NCBI GenBank assembly: GCA_022661535.1
Contig: JAKULF010000003.1
Coordinates: 2,666,001 to 2,730,000 of the forward strand
Source: Eutypa lata
Taxonomy: Eukaryota; Ascomycota; Sordariomycetes; Xylariales; Diatrypaceae
Length of the DNA: 64,000 nucleotides
Direction: 5' to 3'
Shown here: in pieces, positions 13,116 through 35,940 of the stretch
Position numbering within the stretch: position 1 is the stretch's first letter
Layout: each line of letters opens with the position of its first letter
Notes under the pieces: generated by a model
The model's input: the letters and a program-made list of their open reading frames with translations, nothing else
Database searches by the model: none
Told to the model about the DNA's origin: nothing
Translations under genes and position numbers: made by a program

Positions 13116-16100
13116 TCAACTGGAATCTTGCTGCGGAAGACTACTGACACCGCTTCCGAAGACTTCATCCTTCCTTTGCTTCCGATCCCAGACGATTACA
13201 CCGTCACTCTTCCGCTTGAAATATTCGATGCGGTGTTGTGGGATAAACTCCTCGTCCGTCTGCTCCGCCTTCCACTGGTCGAGGGCGCGCTCCATGATTC
13301 CTAGGAAACGGTCCTCATACCCGACAACGTAGTCGCTGCTATCCATCTCTGGGTCCCACCGTAAACGGCTGATCACATCGGCCGACGAGCGAAATTTGCC
13401 GGCATATGCTGGACGGTTTGGGAGGGTGTCAGGGACAGGTTTCTTCTTCCTCTTGCTTGTCGTCTCCATATCACTGTCTAACGTGTCCTCTAGAGGCTCT
13501 GCCTCGTCCTCGTCCTCTTCATCTTCAGACTCGTCATCACCAATGGTGTATTTGCCCCATTCACGACTGTCTAGTCGCAAGTTGCTAACCTCTGTTTGTT
13601 TGGCAAGTGATGCGCTCATCCAGCAGAACTTAGAATCAAAATATTTCTCATCCCCTCGTATCTGTCCTTCGAATTTCTCCAGGACTGTCCGAAGCGTGCC
13701 CATCATGACTTTTACTTCATCTTTTGCTACCGCCTGTTCAGTTAGGCCCTCCAACCGATCGAGACCAATCAGGTAAGAACCCTGATAATCATTAGCCTCT
13801 TCGGTCGTATTCCGGTCTACGAAACGAGCAGGCCAAATTCTGGCGTGTATATTTGGTAGCCGTCGATTAAGGTCTATCACGTCGTTAGCGCTTCATAGTT
13901 TCGAATTACCGAAAAGTGTAAAATAGAGAAAAGAGGAAGACGAATAGAATGTAAAGATGAAAACTTTGTTAAAGCAGCTCCCCCGAAAAGAAGAATGAAA
14001 AAGCGTGAATGTAAATGTCAGCGCAGATATAGGCGAAATACAAACTTACCGACTAAGAGCATCACGCACCGCGACTCCAACCAGCCGACAAAGCCGCTTC
14101 CCTTGGCAAGCGACACGCCCCAGAACTGGGCATCGATCCTCACATAGGTCTTGTAGGATTTGAGGAACTCAGCCCCGCTAGACTGAGACCCCGACTCCGC
14201 GAAGTCCTTGCCACCGTCACCGCCGAGGAACCTAGACCACGTCATCTCGTCGCTTGGCGACGACAAGAGGGTACTCGCGCGCTTTAGCTCCTCCGAGATG
14301 GTGCGCACGGACGGAAGCGATGCCGTGAGCGCCACGTTGAGGCTGGGCCCGTGGAAGCCCAGGATCACCATGGGCTCGCGGGCGGTCCTCATGTAGCGCA
14401 ACCGCTTGTTGTGGAAGAACGGATCGAACACCATGCGGGTCGCCCAGTCGAAGCGCGCGTAGTGATCGAAGAAGGTCGTGATAATAGTCGGGATGGAAAC
14501 GACGGTCTGACCGCCGCCGGATATTAGCAGTTTGCAGACGCGCGACAGGAGGATGGCGATGTGGATCCCTCCCAGATATCCGAACTTGGCGGCGTAGATG
14601 CCTCGCTGCTTGGCCCAGCATTTGATCTGTTTTGTAAAAATAAGTTAGTGTGTTATTTTCCATCATATCTCGTAGAAGGTTCTATAAAAGAGCGAGAAAG
14701 ATAAGACATTAGCTTGTTTTTAGTACTTACAAACTGGTATGCTACCTTGAAGGCGGCGAAGTCTGGGACCGTCCTGCGGAGGTAGTAGAGATCGCGAGCC
14801 GGCTTTAATTTGGCTAGGATCTGTGTAGAGAGGCTGAAGACGGGATCGGCCGGCGGAAGATGCGTCGCATATGGCCATGTCTCTGCGATGAACGTCGAAG
14901 GGCAGTACTGCAAATCCATCCGGATCCCTTGAACTTCAAGCTCGAGCATGGTCCCGGAATGGGCTTTCACGCGGCGGAGAACCCTGACACCTCTCGCTGC
15001 CGCCTTGCGTAGCCTCTGAGCTGCTAACGTGAAGAAGGTTTTGGGGCTAATGGGCCCTATGCAGAGGCAGTCGATGTCTGACGACGAAGTCCAGACACCA
15101 AGACCGTACGAGCCGACAGGCACAACCACGAACACCGGCTTTCCCCGAATCTGGCCGGACCCGCCGTCCTCAAGAATGACTTCCTTCAGCAGATTTAAAG
15201 CTGCTTCTCTTCCGTTGATATCCTCCCCGGAGGGAAATACGTTTCGTTCCATAAGACACTCTCGCAGCTGCGAGACGTCTCCTAAAGCGCCTGGGGCCGA
15301 TTTGGATTCCACTGGAACCAGCAATTTGCTGTTGCCGTCCGTCGAGTTAACCTCAGCCTGTGAAGTAAACTTCAGCAAGCACCTAACTCCCCAGTGGTCA
15401 CTACCGTACGATGTTTGCTCCTCAGTCTGGGCTGCATTATCTAATAGCCCCTTAATCTTTCCGAACATAGTGAAGCGAGAAACAGCGAACAGGTCTTCTC
15501 CTTTGACTAGAATTCTGTCGTATCGTTGTGGCCGGTTGTTAAACCCACTTCCAACAATCTCTGCAGCTAGTTCATTGACAATCGGGTCGAAGGTAGCTCC
15601 CTCTTCGCCTTCATAGGCTTCGCTTAGGTGCCTTTGATCTTGTTCAAAGCTTGAGTCGCCATGGTGCACGCGAGCATATGACCATGCATCAACGAGTCCA
15701 GCCTCAGATATCATAGTTTCTAAGGCTGCGAGGTAGCTTGCTGTTTGTGACGAGATCGCCTTCTTCTTGAGCGCGGCATTGATGGTGTAAGCGCTAGTTG
15801 TGATATTGAAATCACCAGCTACTATCCACGGATTCTGAGGGTAGGATTGGGAGAGATACTTAAGTATTGCTTGTAGCTCAAGCTTTTTATTGGCTACAGA
15901 GCCATCCGTAAGACCACAAGTCAGATGGACTGTTGACAGAATAGCAGGAAGAAACCCATTCTCGTTAGGCTTCCCGATATTGTCAAACCGGACTATGACT
16001 GAACCCTTATGGCGCCTTCGAAACGTTATCCAGTCCCATGAAAAGGACCACTTGCTGAATACTACGGTATTGAGGTGACTCGGTAGAGGTTCGATATCAA

Positions 16101-17148
16101 GTTGTTCGGGCGGCCCGCAGGAGACAAATTGATATTCCTGCCGGATTCCATCGTCTCGTAATAAGTACGATAGAAAGCTATCTGTGACTTCTTCCAACAC
16201 GAGAACATCTGAAGTAGCTGACCTATCCAGTAAGTTCCGTATAATGATGGGATATCGACTCTGCGATGGAGGATACTTGAATTCTGCTAAAACGTTATAG
16301 CTGGCGACTATTAAAGACTGTGGCAAAGACACCTCTGTATGTTGTGATGATGCTACTGCTGCTGCTGCTGCTGCTGCTGCTGATGGATATATCTTCCACT
16401 TTTCATCAGATGGAGAATACACATAAGGCATCCTACCTGGTAGGCTGATATCTGCTATAACGTCATGCTCTACATCTATAACTTGAGCTAACGTTTCTGG
16501 CTCGTGAAAGGGGGTGGGTACGTTCAATGGAGATATTGATAAAGTCGTTAAATCGATGGTGCCCCAAAGTTTCATCTGACTAGTGGCGTTCCCATCAATG
16601 TGCATCCGCTCGCGAATTAAGATGTGAATTTCTTCAACTTCCCATTTGATAGTGGGGAGCAGTTCGGCCTTTTCGTATAGGAACTTATGGGATGAAGAGT
16701 TGAGGTCCTCGCTTTGCCCGATGGTCATGTGCATTTGATACGATCCCGGACTTTGCCCTAAAACACGCAAAATGCGCTCTCTGAGCTCAGCAAGTCTTGA
16801 AGACCGGGCTGGATCTTTGTCGCAGATGAATATCGTGTTGCCGTGCCGATGAGGAAATATGCCTGCTTCGCCTAACTGGACAAGTAATTTAGAGTCCTCG
16901 CTCTCTTGTCTCCAGGTTTTTAATTCCGATAAGATCGATTCTAATGCCGACGATAGGCTATCTATCCCAACAAAGGGGTACACAATGTTGATATGAGGCG
17001 GCCATTTCTCGTATGCCTTGGTGTCATAGAGCATCCGTAGCCGATTAACGGATGGCCATAGATGTTTAGGTGGTATTAGGCATAATGCCGTGTCGTAAGA
17101 GCTAGTAGGAGATCCTACAGACGTTGAGGACCCCTCTGTGGCCGCCAT
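13116..17148 (-). CDS. 2H phosphodiesterase - EEP nuclease - PAP-like nucleotidyltransferase - MJ1316 multidomain RNA-end protein
   Basis: Predicted RNA-end processing or repair enzyme of 1,250 residues. Exons 17148-14731, 14626-14050 and 13873-13116 join in frame. Domains in order: a 2H phosphodiesterase (about 20-230) with His motifs HINI (His52; Asn replaces the usual Thr/Ser) and HMTI (His140); polyalanine near 257-265; an endonuclease/exonuclease/phosphatase domain (about 278-595) with SYNVLAE, LEEV, GDFN, YDRILVK and SDHWG; a poly(A)-polymerase-like nucleotidyltransferase (about 635 on) with GSYGLGVW, Asp691/Asp693 in SDIDCL and Asp745 in RMDLQY; the PAP central region (IKCWAKQRGIY, LGGIHIAILL); an acidic linker; and a C-terminal MJ1316/DUF504 domain ending in IEYFKRKSDGVIVWDRK. 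EEP and transferase catalytic residues are intact. MJ1316 is predicted in the literature to recognise cyclic-phosphate RNA ends. The combined role is inference. Confidence 0.85.
14627..14730 (-). repeat. Introner-like intron, copy A (intron 1 of the 2H/EEP/NTase gene)
   Basis: This phase-0 intron of exactly 104 bp separates the VAYQF and IKCWAKQ segments of the nucleotidyltransferase. Its donor is GTAAGTACTA, it has a CACTAAC branch region about 18 bases from the 3' end, and its acceptor is ACAG. Aligned without gaps to the intron at 23170-23273 it matches at 83 of 104 positions by my count, including the non-splice core ACCTTCTAC. Unrelated introns do not keep such similarity, so the two are likely copies of one introner-like element. 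No target-site duplication is evident in the flanking exons. Confidence 0.8.
16351..16383. repeat. TGC/GCA tract encoding polyalanine
   Basis: It lies inside exon 1 of the RNA-end protein and encodes about eight alanines in the linker between the 2H and EEP domains. Length variation here should be tolerated. Confidence 0.85.
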
Positions 17149-18288
17149 AATCGTTTCGCTGTCGTATCCTTCCTGTGGTTAGGCGTAGAAAACCCAGGGT
17201 TATAGGCGTAAAATTTGGGTGAGCTTAGAGGGTATGAAGTTGTGATACAGCCAAGTGAGATAGTACTATGGTGTGGACGTTAGGTCTTCAATGCTTCCCT
17301 GATTGGTATATGGAAATATTAATCGATAATGAGTATTCCTTAGAAAATTCTCACGTGGTAGATTCCGTCTTTTGGTGCAAAGGTACCTAAGTAGATAACA
17401 AAACCAATATCACAGAGCAAATAAAGTATAAGTATCTAGACACTGCCCGTGTTTAAGTATCGTGCAGACGAAACAACGGGCGGGCTACACTTATCATTTA
17501 GTTTGCTCGCTATCGAACAACATGCAGCGGGTGCGGCTGAAAAAAGGCTTAGTTAGAAATTAGTGCTTCTAATTACTTAGACACCTCGTAACCTAGTGGC
17601 TCATACCGAATATGAATCATAGGTAGGTGAATGAGTAAACCTTTACGATCCGTGAATACTATGTAGTTGGCAGTGGGCTTCTCCCGATTTGGCGACTTTA
17701 AAAGGTCCGGCGTGAGTCACTAAACGTAGCTACATACATGTAGGTGGGCAGGTGGGTAACAGTAACGTCAAACCACTATAAGGAAACAAGCTAGGCGCCT
17801 GGCAGGCGCTAATCTTGGCAACTCACTAGTTAACTAAGTAGGCGATCAGGGGCATAATTCCTAGGAACACGAACATACCTACACATTAAAGCCATACATC
17901 TGTAATTAATAATAAAAGAATCAAAAGGGGAATTGCTACTTTTTTACTAAGTCACAAACCACTATCTACGTAATTGCTTCCTAGATAACATGTAGAAAGT
18001 ATCTTGCTGTTCTATTCTAAAGACCCCCCGTTGACCCAGGTACTTAGATAGCTCTACCAAATTGTACACACAGCAATGGAGAGTGAGTACCTAGAATTAT
18101 AATGTACACTCGAAAGATTGCGTCAAGAATGAATCGCCCCAAACATGTCTACCATGGCATTATACAAATGGGGAATGGAGAGGGGATGTATGTCCTGCAA
18201 TTCTAATTATATCCTTTTCATTCGTCATGGACTGCCCCCATAGGTTGCCACGATCAGCCGCACCGATACGAATGCGATTTGATCGGGT
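17149..18288. other. Spacer between RNA-end protein and desaturase
   Basis: No supported gene. It holds the upstream region of the 13-17 kb gene and the 3' side of the desaturase. Short TAGGTA/TACATA words occur near 17620-17760, and there is AT-rich sequence around 17860-17990. Confidence 0.55.
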
Positions 18289-19927
18289 TCAAGATCGCAT
18301 GACCTTCGCCGGGCTCGGCATTTTACCAGGACGATACCACAAAACGCCGGTTTCATCATTGACTCCGGCATTGGCATCGGCATTTCCATTATTGTCCTTG
18401 TTGCTATTCTCGCACTGTTTATGGTAGAGATGCTACAATGTTGTCAATAAGGGGTTTTTATTGTGAATGAGAGAACGGAGACTTACCGCCCGATGTGTTT
18501 TCTCGGCGTCCGGCTCAACCCACTGGCATTGCGTGAACGCTACCCAGAGCGCCCCCCAGTAAGAGCCCTTGTCTGTGTGGTAGTAATCCCCGAGAAGCGG
18601 CCTAATGGCGTCCGTGGCCTCTTGTGCGTGGTAATGCGGGATGCGGCTATGTCTCGTGTTAGTAATATGGTCTAGGCTCTGCCGTTGCTCTACCGTCGCT
18701 CTGCCATCGCTCTAAACGCCGTCGACTTACGGAAAGAGGTGGTGTATCACATGAAGGTCGATGATGTGATGGAACATATGTCTCAGAACGAATCCAGGAT
18801 CTCGGTCGACAGTGGCAAGCGCGCCGCGGAGGTACGTCCAACTCTCCGGGGTGTACTTAGGCAGAGATGGAGAGGTGTGGTGAAGATAGGTAATCATGAC
18901 TATGGATGTACGTATTAGATGATGATAAACCTCAGAAGAATTCTGAACAACGGGGAAAATACTATACGTACCGATCCAGTGGTTGACCCACATCCAGGGG
19001 AGAACGTAAGTCCAAGCTACCGTCCAGAATCCGAACCGCTGCGCGGCAAGGTAGAGGACATAGCAGACAGTGGCAATGCCCAAGTCGGAGGCGAAGATCC
19101 TCCAAAACTCATGCTCGCGGAACAGAGAGCTCGAGGGGACATAGTGGCTGTTATCCCACCAGCCCCTGGACTTCCGGGGCGAGCTGCTGGGCCCAGCCGT
19201 GATGTGGGTCAGGAGGTACCAGGGCCAGCCGACGAGCTGCTGGAGGACGATGCGCAGCAGGACGACGGCGGGCGCATCCTCGACGAGGTGGTCCACGTCC
19301 AGGTCGGCGCTGGCGCTGGCGCTCCCCCGCAGGAGCTCGCGGTACTCGGCCTTGGTCGGCGGCACGTAGTTGAGGTCGGTCGCCACGTTGTTGGCGAACT
19401 GGTGGTGGCGGGCGTGGCTGGACCGCCACGCGAAGTACGGCAGCATGAGGGCCGAGTGCACGGCGAAGCCGACCGAGTTCGCGACGAGGGGCTGGCCCGG
19501 CGCGAACGAGCCGTGCCCGCACTCGTGCGCGAGGACCCAGAGCCCGGTGAGGGCCACGCTGGCGAGGAACGGGTACGCGCCGTAGCAGACCAGGAACCGA
19601 GCCCAGGGGTAGTGGGCGGCGGCGAGGCGCGATTCCAGGGCGAGGGCGGCGGCGAGGAGCGCTAGGAAGACCGCTAGGTCGCGGGCTAGGAACCCGAGAG
19701 AGCGGGTGGTGGAGGGCTTGAAGCAGTGCGCGGGAATCTGGTCGCGCAGCGTCTTGATGTCGATGTTGATCTTCTTGCCGTCGACGTTTCCCTCAATTTC
19801 CTAACCGGCCGCCGTCAATACATGTTTATTGTACCCAGCAACCACTCTTGGGAATGGGGGCGGATAGACTCACTCCTCCTTCCACAAGCTCCCCATGTAT
19901 AGTTTCGGTAGTGTACAAGGTACTCAT
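18289..19927 (-). CDS. Delta-12-type membrane fatty acid desaturase
   Basis: This is a membrane-bound di-iron desaturase, expected in the endoplasmic reticulum, that inserts a double bond into oleate-like acyl chains. Five exons join in frame: 19927-19874, 19800-18972, 18899-18731, 18646-18487 and 18432-18289, for 451 residues, slightly short for fungal delta-12 enzymes (about 470). The three histidine boxes are intact: HECGH (110-114), HARHH (147-151) and HVIHH (344-348). The C-terminus has the family's PRIPHYHAQEAT and GVLWYR patterns. The N-terminus is unusually short: exon 1 encodes only 18 residues before the conserved INIDIKTLRDQIPAHCF segment. The start at 19927 is the best frame-compatible ATG but is the least certain part. 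Codons in exon 2 are markedly GC-rich. Delta-12 versus omega-3 activity cannot be settled here. Confidence 0.88.
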
Positions 19928-21006
19928 CTTGATAATGCCTCGAAAGCTAATAGGTAGGAGTCCGTAAATAAGAGTCCTCAAGTACCTGAAGGCCCACTCT
20001 TTGTCCAACGTCAAATATTCTTATCTTCCGCAAAACCTTACCCTGCGAGCTTAAAAATATTGGACTCGTATATTGGCGACAGACGTAGTAATGAGGATAT
20101 GCGCTCTAAAGATACTGACAACAACACTTCCAAGTTGTGGAACGGGATTTATGAACTCACGATATCCTACAAGGGGAGACTCTTATAATAGATGACATAG
20201 TCTACTACTTAACCTAAAGACCACCTACTAGCTTATATATTTGTTTGTACATATAAAGGAGGGGAGATAGGCGGTCTGAGAACAGTCGAACTCTTGATCC
20301 TACCTGTTTTTCACCACGAGCTAAATTATTTCCGATTGAAACTATTGACTCACTAAAACAAGTGAGAAGAGTTCGTCAGGCGGTCACGAGCAAGCCACGG
20401 TTAACCAAACTTAGTGCACCGTCTAACATGGGTTGTGATTCAATAACTGGTGTAATACATAGAAGGCTAGACTTCGTTGGTGACTCCAGAGGCAGTCTCT
20501 AGGCTAAGCCAGCCCCATCATGATCAAGTCAGGGGGGAAAGAGTGTCTAGAAGCGGAATTTCCCCCTCTTTTCCCCTGACATCGTATGCCCTACCCGCTA
20601 CAGGATCTCTGTCCTATAGTGTTTACGAGATCCCAAGGTTGAGGCTCTTTCAGCCCTTGTCTGTATCATGAACGCATCACAAGCCACGAGACAAGGATTG
20701 GGCGTTCTTGGGTTGTACGATCTTGCGTTCCCCTTGAGGGTAAGTAGATCGGACTAGATCCTCAACATTCTAAATGATCGAGAACAAGTAAAAGCCCCAC
20801 AGAAATTTTCGAAGAATTATTGATTAGTAGTTTACCCACAAACCCAACGTTCCGTCATAAGCCTCCCAAGCCATGAAATAGTATCGAGAACAATGTCTTA
20901 CCCGTGATCTCGTGTAACGTTGTGGCTACACCTCGCCGATGCGCCCCATGATTCGTAGAGATATTCGTAGAGATATTCGGCTGCCTTGGCCGTAGGTCTC
21001 TAGTCT
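19928..21006. other. Spacer upstream of the desaturase
   Basis: No supported gene. Frames are short. A small direct duplication of a 12-base word (ATTCGTAGAGAT) occurs near 20951-20980. Nothing else stands out. Confidence 0.55.
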
Positions 21007-22098
21007 CTAGTAGTCCGTGCCCCAGTCGACAGTGGGAGTTTCCTTCCCGAGACCTTCCATGATGTATTCGAGTTTATCCTCGTTCGTCACCCAACCGTGT
21101 CTCTTGGTGGCGACGGCGTATCTAATAATATCTTTCCACTCAGCCCACCAGGTCTTCTCCGACTGTATGATGTATTGGCGATTGGGATCGTTGCCCGTGG
21201 ACGAAGCGAACGGCCAGACGACTTTGACGACCTCGTATTTGTTCTTCCCCGAGAATAGCGAAGTCACGCTAGTGAAGAACTTGTTCACCTTGTCGGGGTT
21301 CTGAACAATGACTTTGGCATGCGAGATGGGGAACTGAACCGTCACTACTCCCTTGTACTCCGTCGAAGCGACAAGACTGCGGAGTTGTCCCTCGATCCAG
21401 TTGAGGTCGAGATTCGCCACCACCCGTTCAACCATAAACGTCTTAATACTAGCAGGATCCTTGACGAACCGGTCACACCAATCCTCAAGGCCAGCGTCTG
21501 GACCGAGATCGGGCTTTAGTGCTGGGTGGTGACCCCCGCGACAAGCCATCTCGTCCTGGTTGACACAGCGTAGGTAGTCCATCCGCTTGTTGGGATCATC
21601 AGGAACTAGTAAGCTCATCAAGTTCATCTTGACGGAGAAATCAATCTTATGACCGCGGTTGCCCTGGACAAGGATGTAGGGCTTCGGCGGCACTTTGGCA
21701 AGATTCCGAATCAGAGACGCGAGTGCGGCGGCGTTCTCAGACAGATACGAGGCTTTACTCGTGATGGTCGTCTTATCTGAGGACAGCTCAAATAGAGGCG
21801 GCAAATATTGGCGATAGTCGAGAACTGGGAGTCCCGGGTAGTACTGCGGCCCGTTCCCGCGCTGGCCTTGTCGCTGGGGGTTTGACGTAGGCCCCGAGTA
21901 AGGAGGCGGTTTATGCGGGTGTGTACTGCCGCCGCCGCCGCTACTACTGCCGACTGCCGCATCTTCTGCTGTAGATGTTATTGGGGGAGGGTGACTTGAT
22001 TCAGGCGAATCTGATGGTCGATGAACAGGCCCTGCTGATCGGGCGGCCTTATCCCCCAACACAGATGTTTGGTTTTCCATGCTGAACAATATTCTCAT
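21007..22098 (-). CDS. Uncharacterised proline/glycine-rich N-terminus protein
   Basis: Single-exon frame of 363 residues that I do not recognise. The first 85 or so residues are low complexity (Ser, Pro, Gly, Gln; SSGGGGSTHPHKPPPYSG), which suggests disorder. The rest looks globular and conserved in style, with segments such as KPYILVQGNRGHKIDFSV, MDYLRCVNQDEMACRGG and VVTVQFPISHAKVIV, and a tryptophan-rich C-terminus (SEKTWWAEWKDIIRYA). No signal peptide or membrane segment is visible. An ATG six codons in (22080, MENQTSVL) is an alternative start. It sits just downstream of the Zn2Cys6 regulator on the same strand, but nothing ties them functionally. Confidence 0.7.
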   Translation of the reverse strand: MRILFSMENQTSVLGDKAARSAGPVHRPSDSPESSHPPPITSTAEDAAVGSSSGGGGSTHPHKPPPYSGPTSNPQRQGQRGNGPQYYPGLPVLDYRQYLPPLFELSSDKTTITSKASYLSENAAALASLIRNLAKVPPKPYILVQGNRGHKIDFSVKMNLMSLLVPDDPNKRMDYLRCVNQDEMACRGGHHPALKPDLGPDAGLEDWCDRFVKDPASIKTFMVERVVANLDLNWIEGQLRSLVASTEYKGVVTVQFPISHAKVIVQNPDKVNKFFTSVTSLFSGKNKYEVVKVVWPFASSTGNDPNRQYIIQSEKTWWAEWKDIIRYAVATKRHGWVTNEDKLEYIMEGLGKETPTVDWGTDY

Positions 22099-22736
22099 TC
22101 GCTAGCTTTGGCGATGTCTCAAAGATGCGAATGAATCCAGTGAAACAGATTAGTTAGTGATGCTCTAGTTAGTTAAGATACTTACGTAGTAAATACTACT
22201 TATGTAGGCAGGCAGTTTAAAAGTAAGACCCTTCCAAGAGCTGAAAGAGTGTCCCACCTTCTAATTAACGTCAGCGAAAGAAGGCAGACGCTGACCAGGT
22301 GCCCGGGTGCCCGGATGCCTCACTATGGGATAGTGGATAGCTGACTTGGTGGCGGAGTAAAAGAAAGCTTATTTGCCCATTCTCCTTTGGTGTTATGTTA
22401 CCCAGCCACATGGATTGTACGAATATCATCCGATTGGCCGAACTAATGTTTATAACAGTTACCTACCCCTACCTATCAAGAACTACCTGCCAGCGCCTGC
22501 CTACTGCCTACTAACTAACTACCTACATACATGCACTAGTGCTACGTACATAAATAGTTAGTTAGCCCGTCACCTTACATACATGTATGTTTCATTTCAG
22601 AGTCCTCTAGCTGATGTCTCTACAGTCACGCGGATATATTGCAAACCCGCAAAGTATAGCCTGTAATTCGTTGCTGGGGTAGTAATCGTGCAATCCATCT
22701 GAGACTACTTTACTTTCTTTAACCAATTGGCAGTCC
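22099..22736. other. Spacer with TACCTA words
   Basis: No supported gene. Near 22485-22570 it carries a dense run of CTACCTAC, TACATAC and AGTTAGTTAG words. The 5' part is the upstream region of the 363-residue protein gene. Confidence 0.55.
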
Positions 22737-25311
22737 TTACAGAATATCTCCGTTGAACATCCAGCTTGTCGGTTCCATGTCGACGAAATCGAATTGTACG
22801 TCAGACATCTGAGATCCATTGTTAGACAGCCAAGCCTGAGGGGGGGTGTTTCGCATTTTTCAGCCTACGTACCATGAAATCCCAATTGTCGGTAACCTGA
22901 GAGGGCGTACCCAAAGGAATCTGGTCAAGCTCATCTACAGTTTTCTGGGCTACCTCTCCTTCAAGTATCGACAGGCATTTCTTCACGGCTTCTTCCATGA
23001 CCTTGCTTAATATCTCCGGAAGTTCCTCGTCCCTAGTGCCTTTCATGAGCTCTTTGATCTGCGTATTGATCAAAGAATGAACAAAGTAGCCTTTGATATT
23101 GGTTTCTCCGTTTTCGATGCTCTGCAATGTCATTAACTCTGTTTCGTCTAGTATGGCAAGAAGATCGGACTATTTAGTACAAGCAAGTTAGTGTATCATT
23201 TTTCATTGTATATTGTAGAAGGTTGTATAACAGAACGAGAAAGGTAGGACATCAACCAGTTTTTAGTACTTACACGTAATGGTACCGGGCTAAGTCCCCT
23301 TTCGTCTAACTGAGCTTTGAGTTCTCCAGCTACAGTAAGAAACGCCTGGATTGTTATGATACGGAAGAATCCAGAGCCATTGATCGAGAGACGGGTCAAA
23401 TCGTCTTGCTCTAGCGAGGCTACATCGCTGCGAGGTTGAGTAGCCATGATTGAAGAGGACGGAAATACTGCACACCAGATCTTGACTGAGGTCTCAACCG
23501 CTACTTTTCTAGAAAATGCGTAACATGTCCCGCGTAATGATGGGCTGAAAAATGGAAGATGAAGAGCGATGAGGTAACGGTACATGATGACTTCTATTGC
23601 ACGTATTTCAAATTTAGGGACTAATGTCCTTATGCTCGAATCATGGCTCTGCAGGGCTCGCCTAAGGATCTTAAATGAAGCCCTAAACTGTTCGTCAAGT
23701 CGAAGAGTTTCTTCATATGTGCCATTGGACCCGAGGTCGTTCAAGAATTTGACGATTGCAAGCCGGACCGGGAACGTCTTACGAAGAGCTATTGCGACAG
23801 AGATATTCGTATAAGCGCCTTCTGGTTTCGGCGTGGGATTGTCGACTATGAGCTGGTCGTCATCAAAATTTCCTGGGGGCTTAGTATCGAAATCACTAAG
23901 GGAGATGAGTGGAGGCCCTCCTGAAGTGATGCTTGGCTGTAGAGCTATCTCAAGAATCGTGTTCCATACCCTTCGCCTCATTTCAGAAGCAAAATTTGAT
24001 CTTGTAGGTAGACTTGCTGGATCTCTATGCAGTCCCATACACATTGCTACTCGGATCAATGCGCCCGCGTGGATCCAGTTTGACTCCTCGCCAACACCTG
24101 TTGATTCTCGAGCGAGAAAAAGTAGGATGTTGCTCTGCAGGGACTGGACGTTTAATAACCTTGGCTTGAAATCGGGGTCTGCCAGCCAGGCCTGCCCTTC
24201 ATATACCCAGTGAATCGCCAATGTGCGCAAAGAGAATTTCTCGTCGTATATGGCAGCCCCGATAGCAAGCACCAGTTTAAGTTGAACGAGAAACGCTACA
24301 TCAGGCTCGCTATCTGCTGCCCAAATCGCTTCGTAGTCCCTCCTGAAAGTAGGAATATGGAGGACTCGATATACCTTTTCAGCTGTCCGAAGGTAGCAGT
24401 CCACTAGCTTGTCAGTAACGTCCTTCGAAGGAAGGCTGCTACTTGGACCTACGGGCCATGGAGGTGCCCGCTGGGATTTGATGATCCTTGCTAACGATTT
24501 GCATTTAGCCATACCAGAAGAAGCATGCATTATCCCCTCTCGTTGACGGGAATCCAGCATCTCTATTATGTGGAAAATGTCGCCGACCTAGGCAACGTTG
24601 GGATTTTGATTAAATGATATTCAATGATGTTCAACGAGTAACACGAAGACTCACAGCGGTAGCTCCATTGATCCAGTGGCTCTGTCCAAATAGGCGGGTT
24701 TTCTGTGTTATGCTACGGCTAATAGCCCGTGCCTCGCCAGGTAAACGAGTTTCGTGAAGGATGTGGAGATGTCCACTGATAGATGAAGAAAATGTTTCTA
24801 TGTTGGAGCCCCTAGGTTGAGAGGAAGATTCGACGGGAAGGTCATGAGTCAATTTAGACAGTTGCTCTTCGAGTTCCCTTATTTTCTCCTTCATAGACTG
24901 CACATCCCAGGCGGAAGCCTGGCTAGTAGGTGTCGATTTACCCGTTAGACTAGTCCTTGGCGGACTTAGTTCATAGCCCGGAGCAGTCGATCGAGTGCTA
25001 GTGCTAGAAGTCTGGCCGGAAGACACCGAGTCCTGCGGCTCATCCGATTTTCGGGCCGGAGCAAGATCAGCCGCCCGTTGCCGCGGGGGCTGGGAGGAGA
25101 AGTTTTCATAGATACAGCTCGCTTCTCTGGACCGCAGGCAATTGCTACAAGGGGTTTCCCGATTGCATCGGATTTTGCGTCGCCTGCAAACGGTGCAAGA
25201 ACTACGAGACTTTCAGTATCAGCACGAAAACACCGACTGGACAGCTGGCTATACTTACACGGCCGGTCTTCTACGTCGACGCTCGGGTTCCTGACGATCG
25301 GCTTCGGCCAT
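22737..25311 (-). CDS. Zn2Cys6 fungal-specific transcription factor
   Basis: Predicted nuclear DNA-binding regulator of 760 residues. Five exons join in frame: 25311-25259, 25201-24655, 24587-23274, 23169-22873 and 22808-22737. The zinc binuclear cluster lies right after the first splice junction with cysteines 20, 23, 30, 36, 39 and 47 (C-x2-C-x6-C-x5-C-x2-C-x7-C) and basic residues RRRKIRC. A coiled-coil-like segment follows (MKEKIRELEEQLSKL), then a fungal-specific transcription factor domain (about 230-500; FRRDYEAIW, VAMCMGLHRDP, RRRVWNTILE). The C-terminus is acidic/aromatic (VQFDFVDMEP), a possible activation region. Intron 3 is an introner-like element. The gene is divergent from the MFS transporter at 25805, a layout often seen for a pathway regulator and its transporter. 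Target genes are inferred only. Confidence 0.88.
23170..23273 (-). repeat. Introner-like intron, copy B (intron 3 of the Zn2Cys6 regulator)
   Basis: A phase-0 intron of exactly 104 bp with donor GTAAGTACTA, CACTAAC branch region and ATAG acceptor. It is about 80 percent identical, gap-free, to the intron at 14627-14730 in an unrelated gene. The splice junctions are supported by frame continuity (SPVPLR joined to SDLLAILDETELM). If retained, both introns add a near-identical peptide and then a stop codon at almost the same place. Confidence 0.8.
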
Positions 25312-34866: not shown

Positions 34867-35848
34867 TTAGGGGTTTACCATTCGATTTAGATATATAAAG
34901 CAGCCGCTTAGTGTTCTAGCGGTCGTTACGAGTATAAGGTTTAACGTCGGAACACCTAAGGTATAAAGATAACTCAATCCGTGCACGATGCTATGCAGAA
35001 CGAGAGAAATTCTACTCAAACAGACCTTACCAAGAGCGACCTTACTAATGCTTGTTTGACCAATAAGGTGAAGTCACACTTAGTTAGACAAGCCTGTATA
35101 TGACAAACTCACCAGAGCAGCCGGGCGATAGGACACGACGCGAAAGATACATCGTAGGAGGCTGCTAAATAATCCAAGGTGTAATAAGACCCCATAAGAG
35201 TACTCGAACATACATGACGGAGAGGTTTGGAGGGTCTTGATTGACGGCTCGACCGAAAGTATCTATCTAATTACTGAATGAGGCTGCCCCTATTCCCGGC
35301 GAAAAAGGATCTCCTTTTAGTATCCTATCTCCATACAATCGCTTCTCTACGATACCTATTCCTCAGTTCAACTTGACAGAGTTGATCTCTCAGTACGCTA
35401 GTGATCGCGAAGTTCGATAGGCTGCCAGTCCTCAAGAGCTTCCGCTTAGTTAAATATGACGATCACGTTGTCGCACATAAACTACAGTTCTTTTAATTCT
35501 CGTTGACCATGGATCTGTTATCTAGTAGATGAGACTCTGGCACATACATTCTATTGAATCCCCCAAGCTTGATTGGATGGATTGGATTATGTTTCACTGC
35601 ACTTTTAGGCCACGCGAGCTGCGTCCCTCCAGCTTACTTTCATAGCAACCAATCGTCGCACAAGCCGGTTTTAGAGAAGCTACACTTCGACTTCGGTGTC
35701 GCCATACTCGCCGGAGAAAAAAAGTCCAGCGCTTCCGACCCACGCCCCCCGGAGTTCGGTTAGGGAACCCCGGGATGAAAAGAAGAAAACAAAGCAAAAT
35801 GAATGCGCAAATGTTGCACGTCAACGGGAAAAAGAAAAAAGAAAACTT
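34867..35848. other. Spacer between the tRNA-like sequence and tRNA-Tyr
   Basis: No gene seen. Frames near 35554-35824 are short and overlap on both strands. Transfer-RNA neighbourhoods often attract retroelements, but no terminal repeat is visible. Confidence 0.5.
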
Positions 35849-35940
35849 CCCTCGGGCCGGAATCGAACCGGCGACATTTCGATTACAAGATTTTTACAAC
35901 AATTACAGTCGAACGCGATAACCATCTACACCACCAAGGG
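35849..35940 (-). tRNA. tRNA-Tyr (GTA anticodon) with 19-nt intron
   Basis: On the minus strand the 92-nt sequence folds as a canonical cloverleaf. The acceptor stem is CCCTTGG/CCGAGGG with the C1-G72 pair expected of eukaryotic tRNA-Tyr. The D arm starts GTGTAGATGG. The anticodon stem TTCGA/TCGAA encloses loop CTGTAA+A (anticodon GTA), with a 19-nt intron after position 37. The T stem is GCCGG/CCGGC around loop TTCGATT. A and B boxes match consensus, and a T-rich terminator (TTTTCTTTTTT) follows the 3' end. Removing the intron leaves 73 nt. Tyr tRNA genes in fungi normally carry such an intron. Confidence 0.85.

Follow-up and report, generated by a model that had tools for sequence, protein, structure and literature searches.

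A window of 64,000 nucleotides from the xylarialean fungus Eutypa lata (assembly GCA_022661535.1, contig JAKULF010000003.1, positions 2,666,001 to 2,730,000) carries two genes that are unrelated by their domains, and each is interrupted by an intron closely resembling that of the other. Gene 1 encodes a fusion of a 2H-phosphoesterase, an EEP nuclease and a poly(A)-polymerase, with homologues that have the domains PF13563, PF03372, PF04928 and PF20750. Gene 2 encodes a fungal transcription factor with PF04082, referred to below as the regulator. The two introns are almost certainly copies of one introner family, with many further members in the genome. The wider interpretation, that this Xylariales fungus harbours an introner family that has spread through spliced intron RNA, appears likely to us. 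The features are listed with the evidence for each; P0001 and P0121 are open frames related to genes 1 and 2, respectively, and are discussed further below.

14627..14730, minus strand: introner copy 1, a phase-0 intron of 104 nt within the gene for the EEP/poly(A)-polymerase fusion (alignment, reading frame, genome copies; absent from P0001)
14725..14730, minus strand: 5' splice site of copy 1, GTAAGT (sequence)
14709..14722, minus strand: 5' arm of the copy 1 palindrome, sense positions 9-22 (self reverse-complement alignment and predicted fold)
14634..14648, minus strand: 3' arm of the copy 1 palindrome, starting with the branch site CTAAC at 14644-14648 (self reverse-complement alignment)
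14627..14629, minus strand: 3' splice site of copy 1, CAG (sequence)
14731..17148, minus strand: 5' exon of gene 1, 806 codons from ATG (open frame; homologue domains)
14050..14626, minus strand: gene 1 exon following copy 1, to the donor of the next, ordinary intron (open frame; P0001 continues into that next intron)
23170..23273, minus strand: introner copy 2, a phase-0 intron of 104 nt within the PF04082 transcription factor gene (alignment, frame; P0121 reads into copy 2)
23268..23273, minus strand: 5' splice site of copy 2, GTAAGT (sequence)
23187..23191, minus strand: branch site of copy 2, CTAAC (sequence)
23170..23172, minus strand: 3' splice site of copy 2, TAG (sequence)
23274..24587, minus strand: regulator exon, open frame upstream of copy 2 (open frame, PF04082)
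22825..23169, minus strand: open frame downstream of copy 2, the far end of which overruns the exon into the next intron (open frame)

An earlier note on this stretch had described the introns as 104 bp long, in phase 0, on the minus strand and alike at 83 of 104 positions without gaps, in host genes without homology to each other. A recount gave exactly these values, and the pairing of a fusion enzyme with a PF04082 regulator agrees with the statement about the genes. Transitions account for 15 of the 21 mismatches. When the first six and last four bases are set aside, 74 of 94 positions match, against a maximum of 43 in single-base shuffles (n=2000), and the words ACCTTCTAC and CTTTCTCG are found in each intron. 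In gene 1, phase 0 is seen from the exon 14731-17148, which is open to KVAYQF and resumes with IKCWAKQRG past the intron. In gene 2 it is seen from the regulator reading ...SPVPLR|SDLLAILDE.... The gene 1 site sits within a highly conserved protein stretch, KVAYQF|IKCWAKQRGIYAAKFGYLGG, and the intron found there has a stop in each of the three frames.

The suggestion that the two introns belong to an introner family, with further copies to be expected, was borne out by the host genome (54.5 Mb), in which at least 111 members were located on 19 of the 29 contigs. The tally comprises 89 members found with the first intron, three other copies and patterns, 19 added by a palindrome arm pattern and 3 added by a core pattern. 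Reversed-pattern controls gave no match in any of the four copy-finding pattern scans. Since 37 of the 40 matches of the final core-pattern scan were already known members, few close copies should be missing from the count; members that have diverged further probably exist. The family profile was built from sense copies only, because the palindrome mixes strands. It was fitted by 19 of the 28 additional matches fetched in the arm scan and not by the other 9. Eight of these nine are very AT-rich (5-19% guanine plus cytosine, GC; loci L119, L120, L124, L128, L129 and L132-L134) and look like chance matches to the arm pattern that resemble regions of repeat-induced mutation. Locus L136 (from position 397954 of our contig C24 onward, 40% GC) is a 28-base fragment of the 5' end, with 26 bases matching the consensus and the rest of the element missing; it was not counted as a member.

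Three member pairs shared between contigs C6 and C11 are segmental duplicates, and two members together form one stwintron, that is, an introner within an introner. The junction composition was calculated from 81 of the first 89 copies, leaving out 2 segmental duplicates, 2 stwintron halves, 3 copies with unclear ends and 1 to which a wrong acceptor had been assigned. A separate tally of junction dinucleotides used 87 of the 89 and still includes the duplicates and stwintron halves. The later set uses 99 of 108 copies, without 3 duplicates, 2 stwintron halves, 3 unclear copies and the antisense copy L111. Within it the donors of L123 and L135 are uncertain, and the 3 core-scan copies enter no statistic. 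The duplicated sites (L063/L064, L074/L075 and L112/L118) lie in reverse order in C6:1194569-1527422 and C11:3093256-3425625 with near-equal spacing (180 and 152 kb), and are 99.8-100% identical over up to 3.1 kb each. From spacing and identity together, the duplicated block seems to measure about 333 kb or more, and the duplication would be either recent or a product of the assembly.

Each copy would be a complete spliceosomal intron, with its own donor, branch site and acceptor. Among the 89 copies the donor is GTAAGT in 68, GTGAGT in 12, GTACGT in 4 and another sequence in 5; the branch site is CTAAC in 70 and CTGAC in 9; the assigned acceptors are TAG (40), AAG (27), CAG (21) and GAG (1). 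Members are mostly 103-110 nt long, with a range of 82-147 in the later, more diverged set, and carry A or T runs as insertions at a number of places. Some copies (among L079, L028, L053, L125 and L131) have 8-12 A right before the acceptor G, while others have long A/T runs in the arms; these runs alter the length of the intron and leave the family sequence intact. The similarity had been said to cover the whole intron, core words included, and this holds for the family as well: over 81 copies, themselves found by similarity, conservation is 0.84-0.91 in the middle and 0.90 in the branch region.

The 104-base consensus is 67% identical to its own reverse complement from end to end. The arms match without a break over 13 bases from position 9, the centre is TATAGAACCTTCTACA, and in the outer 8 bases, which include the donor, 4 match their mirror counterparts. 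Single copies are less symmetric (mean identity 48%; 41 of 87 above z 2), and their symmetry falls the more they diverge from the consensus (Spearman 0.49, p 2e-6). Because the consensus is symmetric too, the trend points to the decay of an ancestral symmetry, without a role being shown. The predicted hairpin, the stability of which the earlier note had proposed to check, is strong in the consensus, which folds better than its shuffles with z -3.7 as sense RNA and -5.9 as antisense, and does not extend to each copy: as sense RNA the window introns fold weakly (z -1.66 for 14627, +0.84 for 23170). The consensus fold could be taken to mean that the introns are old and were made alike by gene conversion, or by a common function of the intron RNA, for instance as a structured RNA. 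This is highly improbable. Individual copies lose the fold and keep their splice signals, as the 23170 intron does, the Rfam search found no family at threshold at the window introns, and relatives among the matches listed are without an intron at either site.

Insertion appears to be seamless. Four of the closest pairs are identical at 103/104, 99/105, 98/104 and 96/104 positions, and their 300-nt flanks are no more alike than those of random pairs; the similarity thus stops at the splice sites. The search for flanking duplications that the earlier note had proposed gave none in 86 copies: exact 3-nt flank repeats occur at 2 (1.3 in shuffles) and 5-nt repeats at 0 (0.1). Small excesses of 2-nt repeats (9 against 5.9) and of shared 6-mers within 10 nt (2 against 0.7) are within the shuffle range.

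The flanks have the properties of coding sequence in the sense direction. In 94 of 99 copies the two flanks share a phase that stays open over 60 nt or more; on the opposite strand this is so for 63 of 99, and at points chosen at random within the same loci for 51%. For 40 of the 47 long-flanked copies outside the window the longer flank piece was compared with Pfam, and 29 gave a sense-frame domain at E<=0.001, 27 of them above the curated cut-off; the other 11 pieces had no match. The domains come from more than 20 families, such as F-box, PGAP2IP, polyketide-synthase-like, P450, acyl-CoA oxidase, GMC oxidoreductase and OPT transporter. Phases are evenly distributed (25, 21 and 18 of the 64 copies, out of 81, to which a crude open-frame rule assigned a clear phase). 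Among the at least 111 members, which were located by intronic queries, no copy lies clearly outside genes, and one, L111, is antisense to its host frame. The members therefore look like full spliceosomal introns in the coding sequence of unrelated genes, although splicing itself is deduced from the reading frames. A codon-usage score trained on 13 open frames of the window proved too weak for single flanks: both sides were positive in 50 of 89 copies, and the sense strand scored higher than the antisense in 77 of 89. The flanks were judged instead by Pfam and by the length of their open frames relative to controls. Some genes carry more than one copy: an OPT transporter gene has two copies 313 bases apart (L029/L039, C18:745264 and 745577), and an aminotransferase-domain stretch has two copies 461 bases apart (L043, C18:972248 and 972709).

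The exon bases next to the intron are not random. The last base before it is C or T in 60 of 81 copies (p 1.3e-4 against flank composition) and the first base after it is A in 35 of 81 (p 1.9e-5), while no other position within 15 nt of the junction reached p<0.001 in these copies. Junctions with a pyrimidine before and A after the intron (Y|A, the bar marking the intron) number 26 in 87 copies, with 8.9 expected; as the same data served both to notice the preference and to test it, these p-values are exploratory. In 59 ordinary intron candidates from the same loci, defined by a splice-signal pattern with open flanks, it is G and A that precede the intron, and introners differ from these candidates with p 7e-5 before and 0.02 after the intron. 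The preference is not strand-symmetric (p 7e-4). Of 84 junctions, 15 are C|A and only 1 is the reverse complement, T|G. Copies ending in GCAG have G before the intron in 9 of 15 cases, against 10 of 84 for the others (p 1.4e-4), and AG before the intron is rare (3/86). For Xylariales stwintrons no nucleotide bias is reported by Fekete et al. 2025 (PMC12403724).

Near-identical open frames bear on the age of the window introns, and one of them suggests recent gain at the 14627 site. P0001, from public assemblies, agrees with the gene 1 protein at 1002 of 1007 aligned residues and crosses the 14627 site unbroken. Its C-terminus continues into the next intron as the window DNA does (CVMLLVGKFVFRLYLR), and it is listed on 2 contigs, the longest of 26308 bases, too long for a transcript. 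P0001 is therefore an unspliced frame, and a near-identical genome thus appears to be without the 14627 intron. P0121, with 451 of 454 residues as in the regulator, has the end ...PVPLRVSTKNWLMSYLSRSVIQPSTIYNEK. These are the residues obtained when the window DNA is translated on into the 23170 intron, which is hence present there. Both comparisons are of proteins, not DNA, and the two frames need not come from one strain.

More distant frames lead in the same direction. At the gene 1 site all 35 metagenome-only frames among the 120 matches listed, P0001 included, cross unbroken. Of these, 18 (again with P0001) read on into the next intron and so represent unspliced DNA; P0089, P0090, P0099, P0101 and P0110 continue like a spliced exon and are excluded from the 18. 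At the regulator site 57 of the 59 metagenome-only frames among the matches listed cross, the exceptions being P0121, which reads into the intron, and P0222. A crude count of 34 read-through tails was not relied on here, as at least one of them (P0230) looks spliced. Of the two outcomes that the earlier note had named as refuting its reading, a lack of further copies and the presence of these introns in orthologues of distant species, neither was observed. A third site, in cwh43 (C24:1189464), is crossed by 17 of 17 metagenome-only frames, spliced and unspliced ones not being separable; the cwh43 protein search found no near-identical strain among the matches listed and says nothing on polymorphism. 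Site novelty was examined at these 3 of the 111 sites. The closest named relatives of the three host proteins, among the matches listed, are from Monosporascus (77%) and Diatrype stigma (71% and 79%), which places the fungus close to these genera within Xylariales.

It could be argued that P0001 lost the 14627 intron and that nothing was gained in the strain of the window. P0001 has the substitution Q805L in the codon adjoining the intron-bordering one, the only change near the site. The window has Q, as do the alignments of six of six relatives that were read, so that L is derived in P0001, as would also fit secondary loss in its lineage. Such a loss is quite unlikely nonetheless. All 34 other metagenome-only frames among the matches listed cross the site, 17 of them demonstrably unspliced, which indicates that the intron is absent from the wider clade, and loss would require that the intron was first gained and later removed again, all within 0.5% protein divergence. 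The introns discussed here seem to have been gained very recently. This is in keeping with the earlier description of the family as recently active, as are the two copies that are alike at 103 of 104 positions in unrelated flanks; that its members move at all is deduced from the distribution of the copies.

Two members depart from the common form. At L098 (C2:3701529-3701738) a G precedes a 104-nt member with GCAG at its end, after which comes the remainder of another member, TAAGTACTAG...TAAATAG. In the numbering of this locus the G is at 260, the internal intron covers 261-364 (104 nt) and the external intron consists of G260 plus 365-469 (106 nt). The arrangement is that of a [D1,2] stwintron, with the external donor split between G1 and T2 and with both introns belonging to the family. 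Removal of both would join two open frames via the codon ATA, while retention brings in several stops, and from these frames splicing of the putative stwintron is assumed. When two directly adjoining copies were sought by pattern, there were 27 matches (10 in the control), of which only C2:3701619 had no mismatch and was taken further. A generic strict stwintron pattern showed no excess, with 2 matches against 3 in the reversed control.

At L111 (C6:552290) the family sequence is antisense to an open frame. This frame, ...FDCTRQ | DRRMTLEGWEGFV..., flanks a 79-nt stretch GTTAGT...ATTAACTTGTTTTTAG (391-469 of L111), which appears to act as an intron of the antisense host frame through mirror-image splice signals. 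Read in reverse complement, the branch site ACTAAC becomes the donor GTTAGT and the 5' arm CTAAAAACAAGTTAAT provides a branch site and an acceptor, ATTAACTTGTTTTTAG, so that the donor of L111 is the mirror of a branch site and its branch site and acceptor are the mirror of a 5' arm. As the flanks of L111 and L098 had no Pfam match, the exon reading at both loci is based on the open frames. One may speculate that the palindrome makes a two-way intron, spliced in either direction, inserted on an RNA or RNA-like strand at YpA, with nesting in the donor giving rise to stwintrons. The family match at L111 (388-472) ends within 3 bases of the mirror signals, and the moved unit may therefore be set by splicing and not by DNA ends. 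We regard this proposal as doubtful: the match overruns the mirror signals by 3 bases on either side, and a mirror branch-like motif is present in only 32 of 81 sense copies. Mirror donor and mirror acceptor occur together in 45 of the 81.

How the family spreads can be approached from these properties. With splice signals of its own, a copy could be removed by splicing from nearly any position that it reaches in transcribed coding sequence. The excised intron RNA, perhaps protected by the near-palindromic hairpin, would be the mobile form; its symmetry may let it survive or pair. It would be inserted seamlessly into another gene, either by reverse splicing or by ligation into a break, and converted to DNA. 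Reverse splicing is the older proposal, discussed in PMC8469720, and ligation of intron RNA into DNA breaks was put forward by Fekete et al. (PMC12403724). The present data do not separate the two, and the antisense copy L111 is foreseen by neither. Insertion of excised intron RNA is in line with ends that are seamless at the splice sites, with the sense orientation within transcribed coding sequence and with the strand-specific junctions, and we lean slightly towards a route of this type.

The palindrome invites a different explanation, namely a non-autonomous DNA transposon similar to a miniature inverted-repeat transposable element, which would consist of inverted repeats over its whole length and happen to carry all splice signals. 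The self-complementary consensus with its 13-base perfect arm match, the conservation over the whole element and the one copy inverted relative to its host frame are in line with it, and most introners are argued by Gozashti et al. (PMC9860276) to move as DNA. It is nevertheless rather unlikely here. There is no target-site duplication in 86 copies and no borrowed splice site, and the outer 8 bases, the donor among them, match their counterparts at 4 only. No copy is clearly non-genic, antisense orientation was recognised in 1 of 111, and sense orientation follows from open frames in 94 of 99 tested. A symmetric DNA element should treat C|A and T|G junctions alike and would not predict a strand bias, so that the observed bias counts for the RNA route. 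No longer element with both ends was recognised in the pattern scans, which were not designed to be exhaustive for that.

Several observations weigh against spread through intron RNA and recent gain, in addition to the Q805L substitution of P0001 and the Q of its relatives. A palindrome is expected of a DNA element, whereas the RNA route needs none, and symmetry that tracks the consensus shows ancestral decay and not a role. The at least 111 copies were found with intronic queries, and non-genic copies may be under-sampled. The L136 fragment also belongs on this side, and a copy antisense to its host frame, such as L111, would not be directly produced by the RNA route.

Introner-like elements of Capnodiales were reportedly described by van der Burgt et al. 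in 2012, and Huff et al. (2016) are said to have traced introners to DNA transposons. The closest known introns to those studied here are the symmetrical canonical introns of Hypoxylon CO27-5 and EC38 (Fekete et al. 2021, PMC8469720), from the same order. They share long imperfect inverted repeats meeting at a central palindrome, and new, seamless positions with neither target-site duplication nor phase bias. Inverted repeats of about 45-55 nt meeting mid-intron, as in the Hypoxylon type-2 cropped sister introns, are also seen in our consensus at 67% identity; one Hypoxylon example has about 73.5%, and single copies here average 48%. The near-terminal motifs GUAUAAAAAC and GUUUUUAUAC (PMC12403724) are similar by eye to GUACUAAAAAC and GUUUUUACUAA here. 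The two Hypoxylon examples are 93 nt long, against mostly 103-110 nt, CO27-5 has 10 copies, against at least 111, and the central palindrome TTTCTAGAAA of the type-2 cropped introns has AGAACCTTCT in its place here. The Hypoxylon introns derive from stwintrons by deletion, whereas canonical introns dominate here and one stwintron was found. No junction pattern is reported in PMC8469720, in contrast to the Y|A bias of this family. In form, L098 corresponds to the [D1,2] sister stwintrons that Fekete et al. (2025, PMC12403724) describe in Hypoxylaceae and Xylariaceae, with 288 of them in 14 species compared with the one in our family of at least 111.

Introner-like elements of Capnodiales (Collemare et al. 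2015, PMC4457414), compared by description, are also multicopy near-identical introns of fungal genes with predicted hairpins and a content specific to each species. The AG/GY site preference of van der Burgt et al., as given in PMC8469720, differs from the rarity of AG before the intron here (3/86). Introners from DNA transposons (Gozashti et al. 2022, PMC9860276) have terminal inverted repeats too, and this family differs from them in having neither a target-site duplication nor a splice site taken from such a duplication. According to that study, ascomycete families lack both inverted repeats and duplications; repeats like those of the present family were thus not seen there. By title or abstract, none of the introner and stwintron papers among the matches listed deals with Diatrypaceae or Monosporascus, and the words Diatryp, Eutypa and Monosporascus do not occur in PMC12403724 and PMC9024468; the survey of PMC9860276 may have detected this family earlier. 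The kind of element is known. This family is set apart by the number of copies that palindromic canonical introns have reached in it, by its preferred junctions, by a stwintron made of two introners and by a copy lying antisense.

The origin of new spliceosomal introns is a long-open question with few living examples. With more than 100 copies of one intron, some of them very recent, and a near-identical gene apparently without one, before and after can be compared at single sites. Three signatures, namely the junction preference, the stwintron and the antisense copy, can be of help in telling insertion from RNA apart from insertion as DNA.

The only Rfam match of the window is a tRNA gene on the minus strand at 35848-35940. 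Since the match is 93 nt long, this gene perhaps contains an intron of its own.

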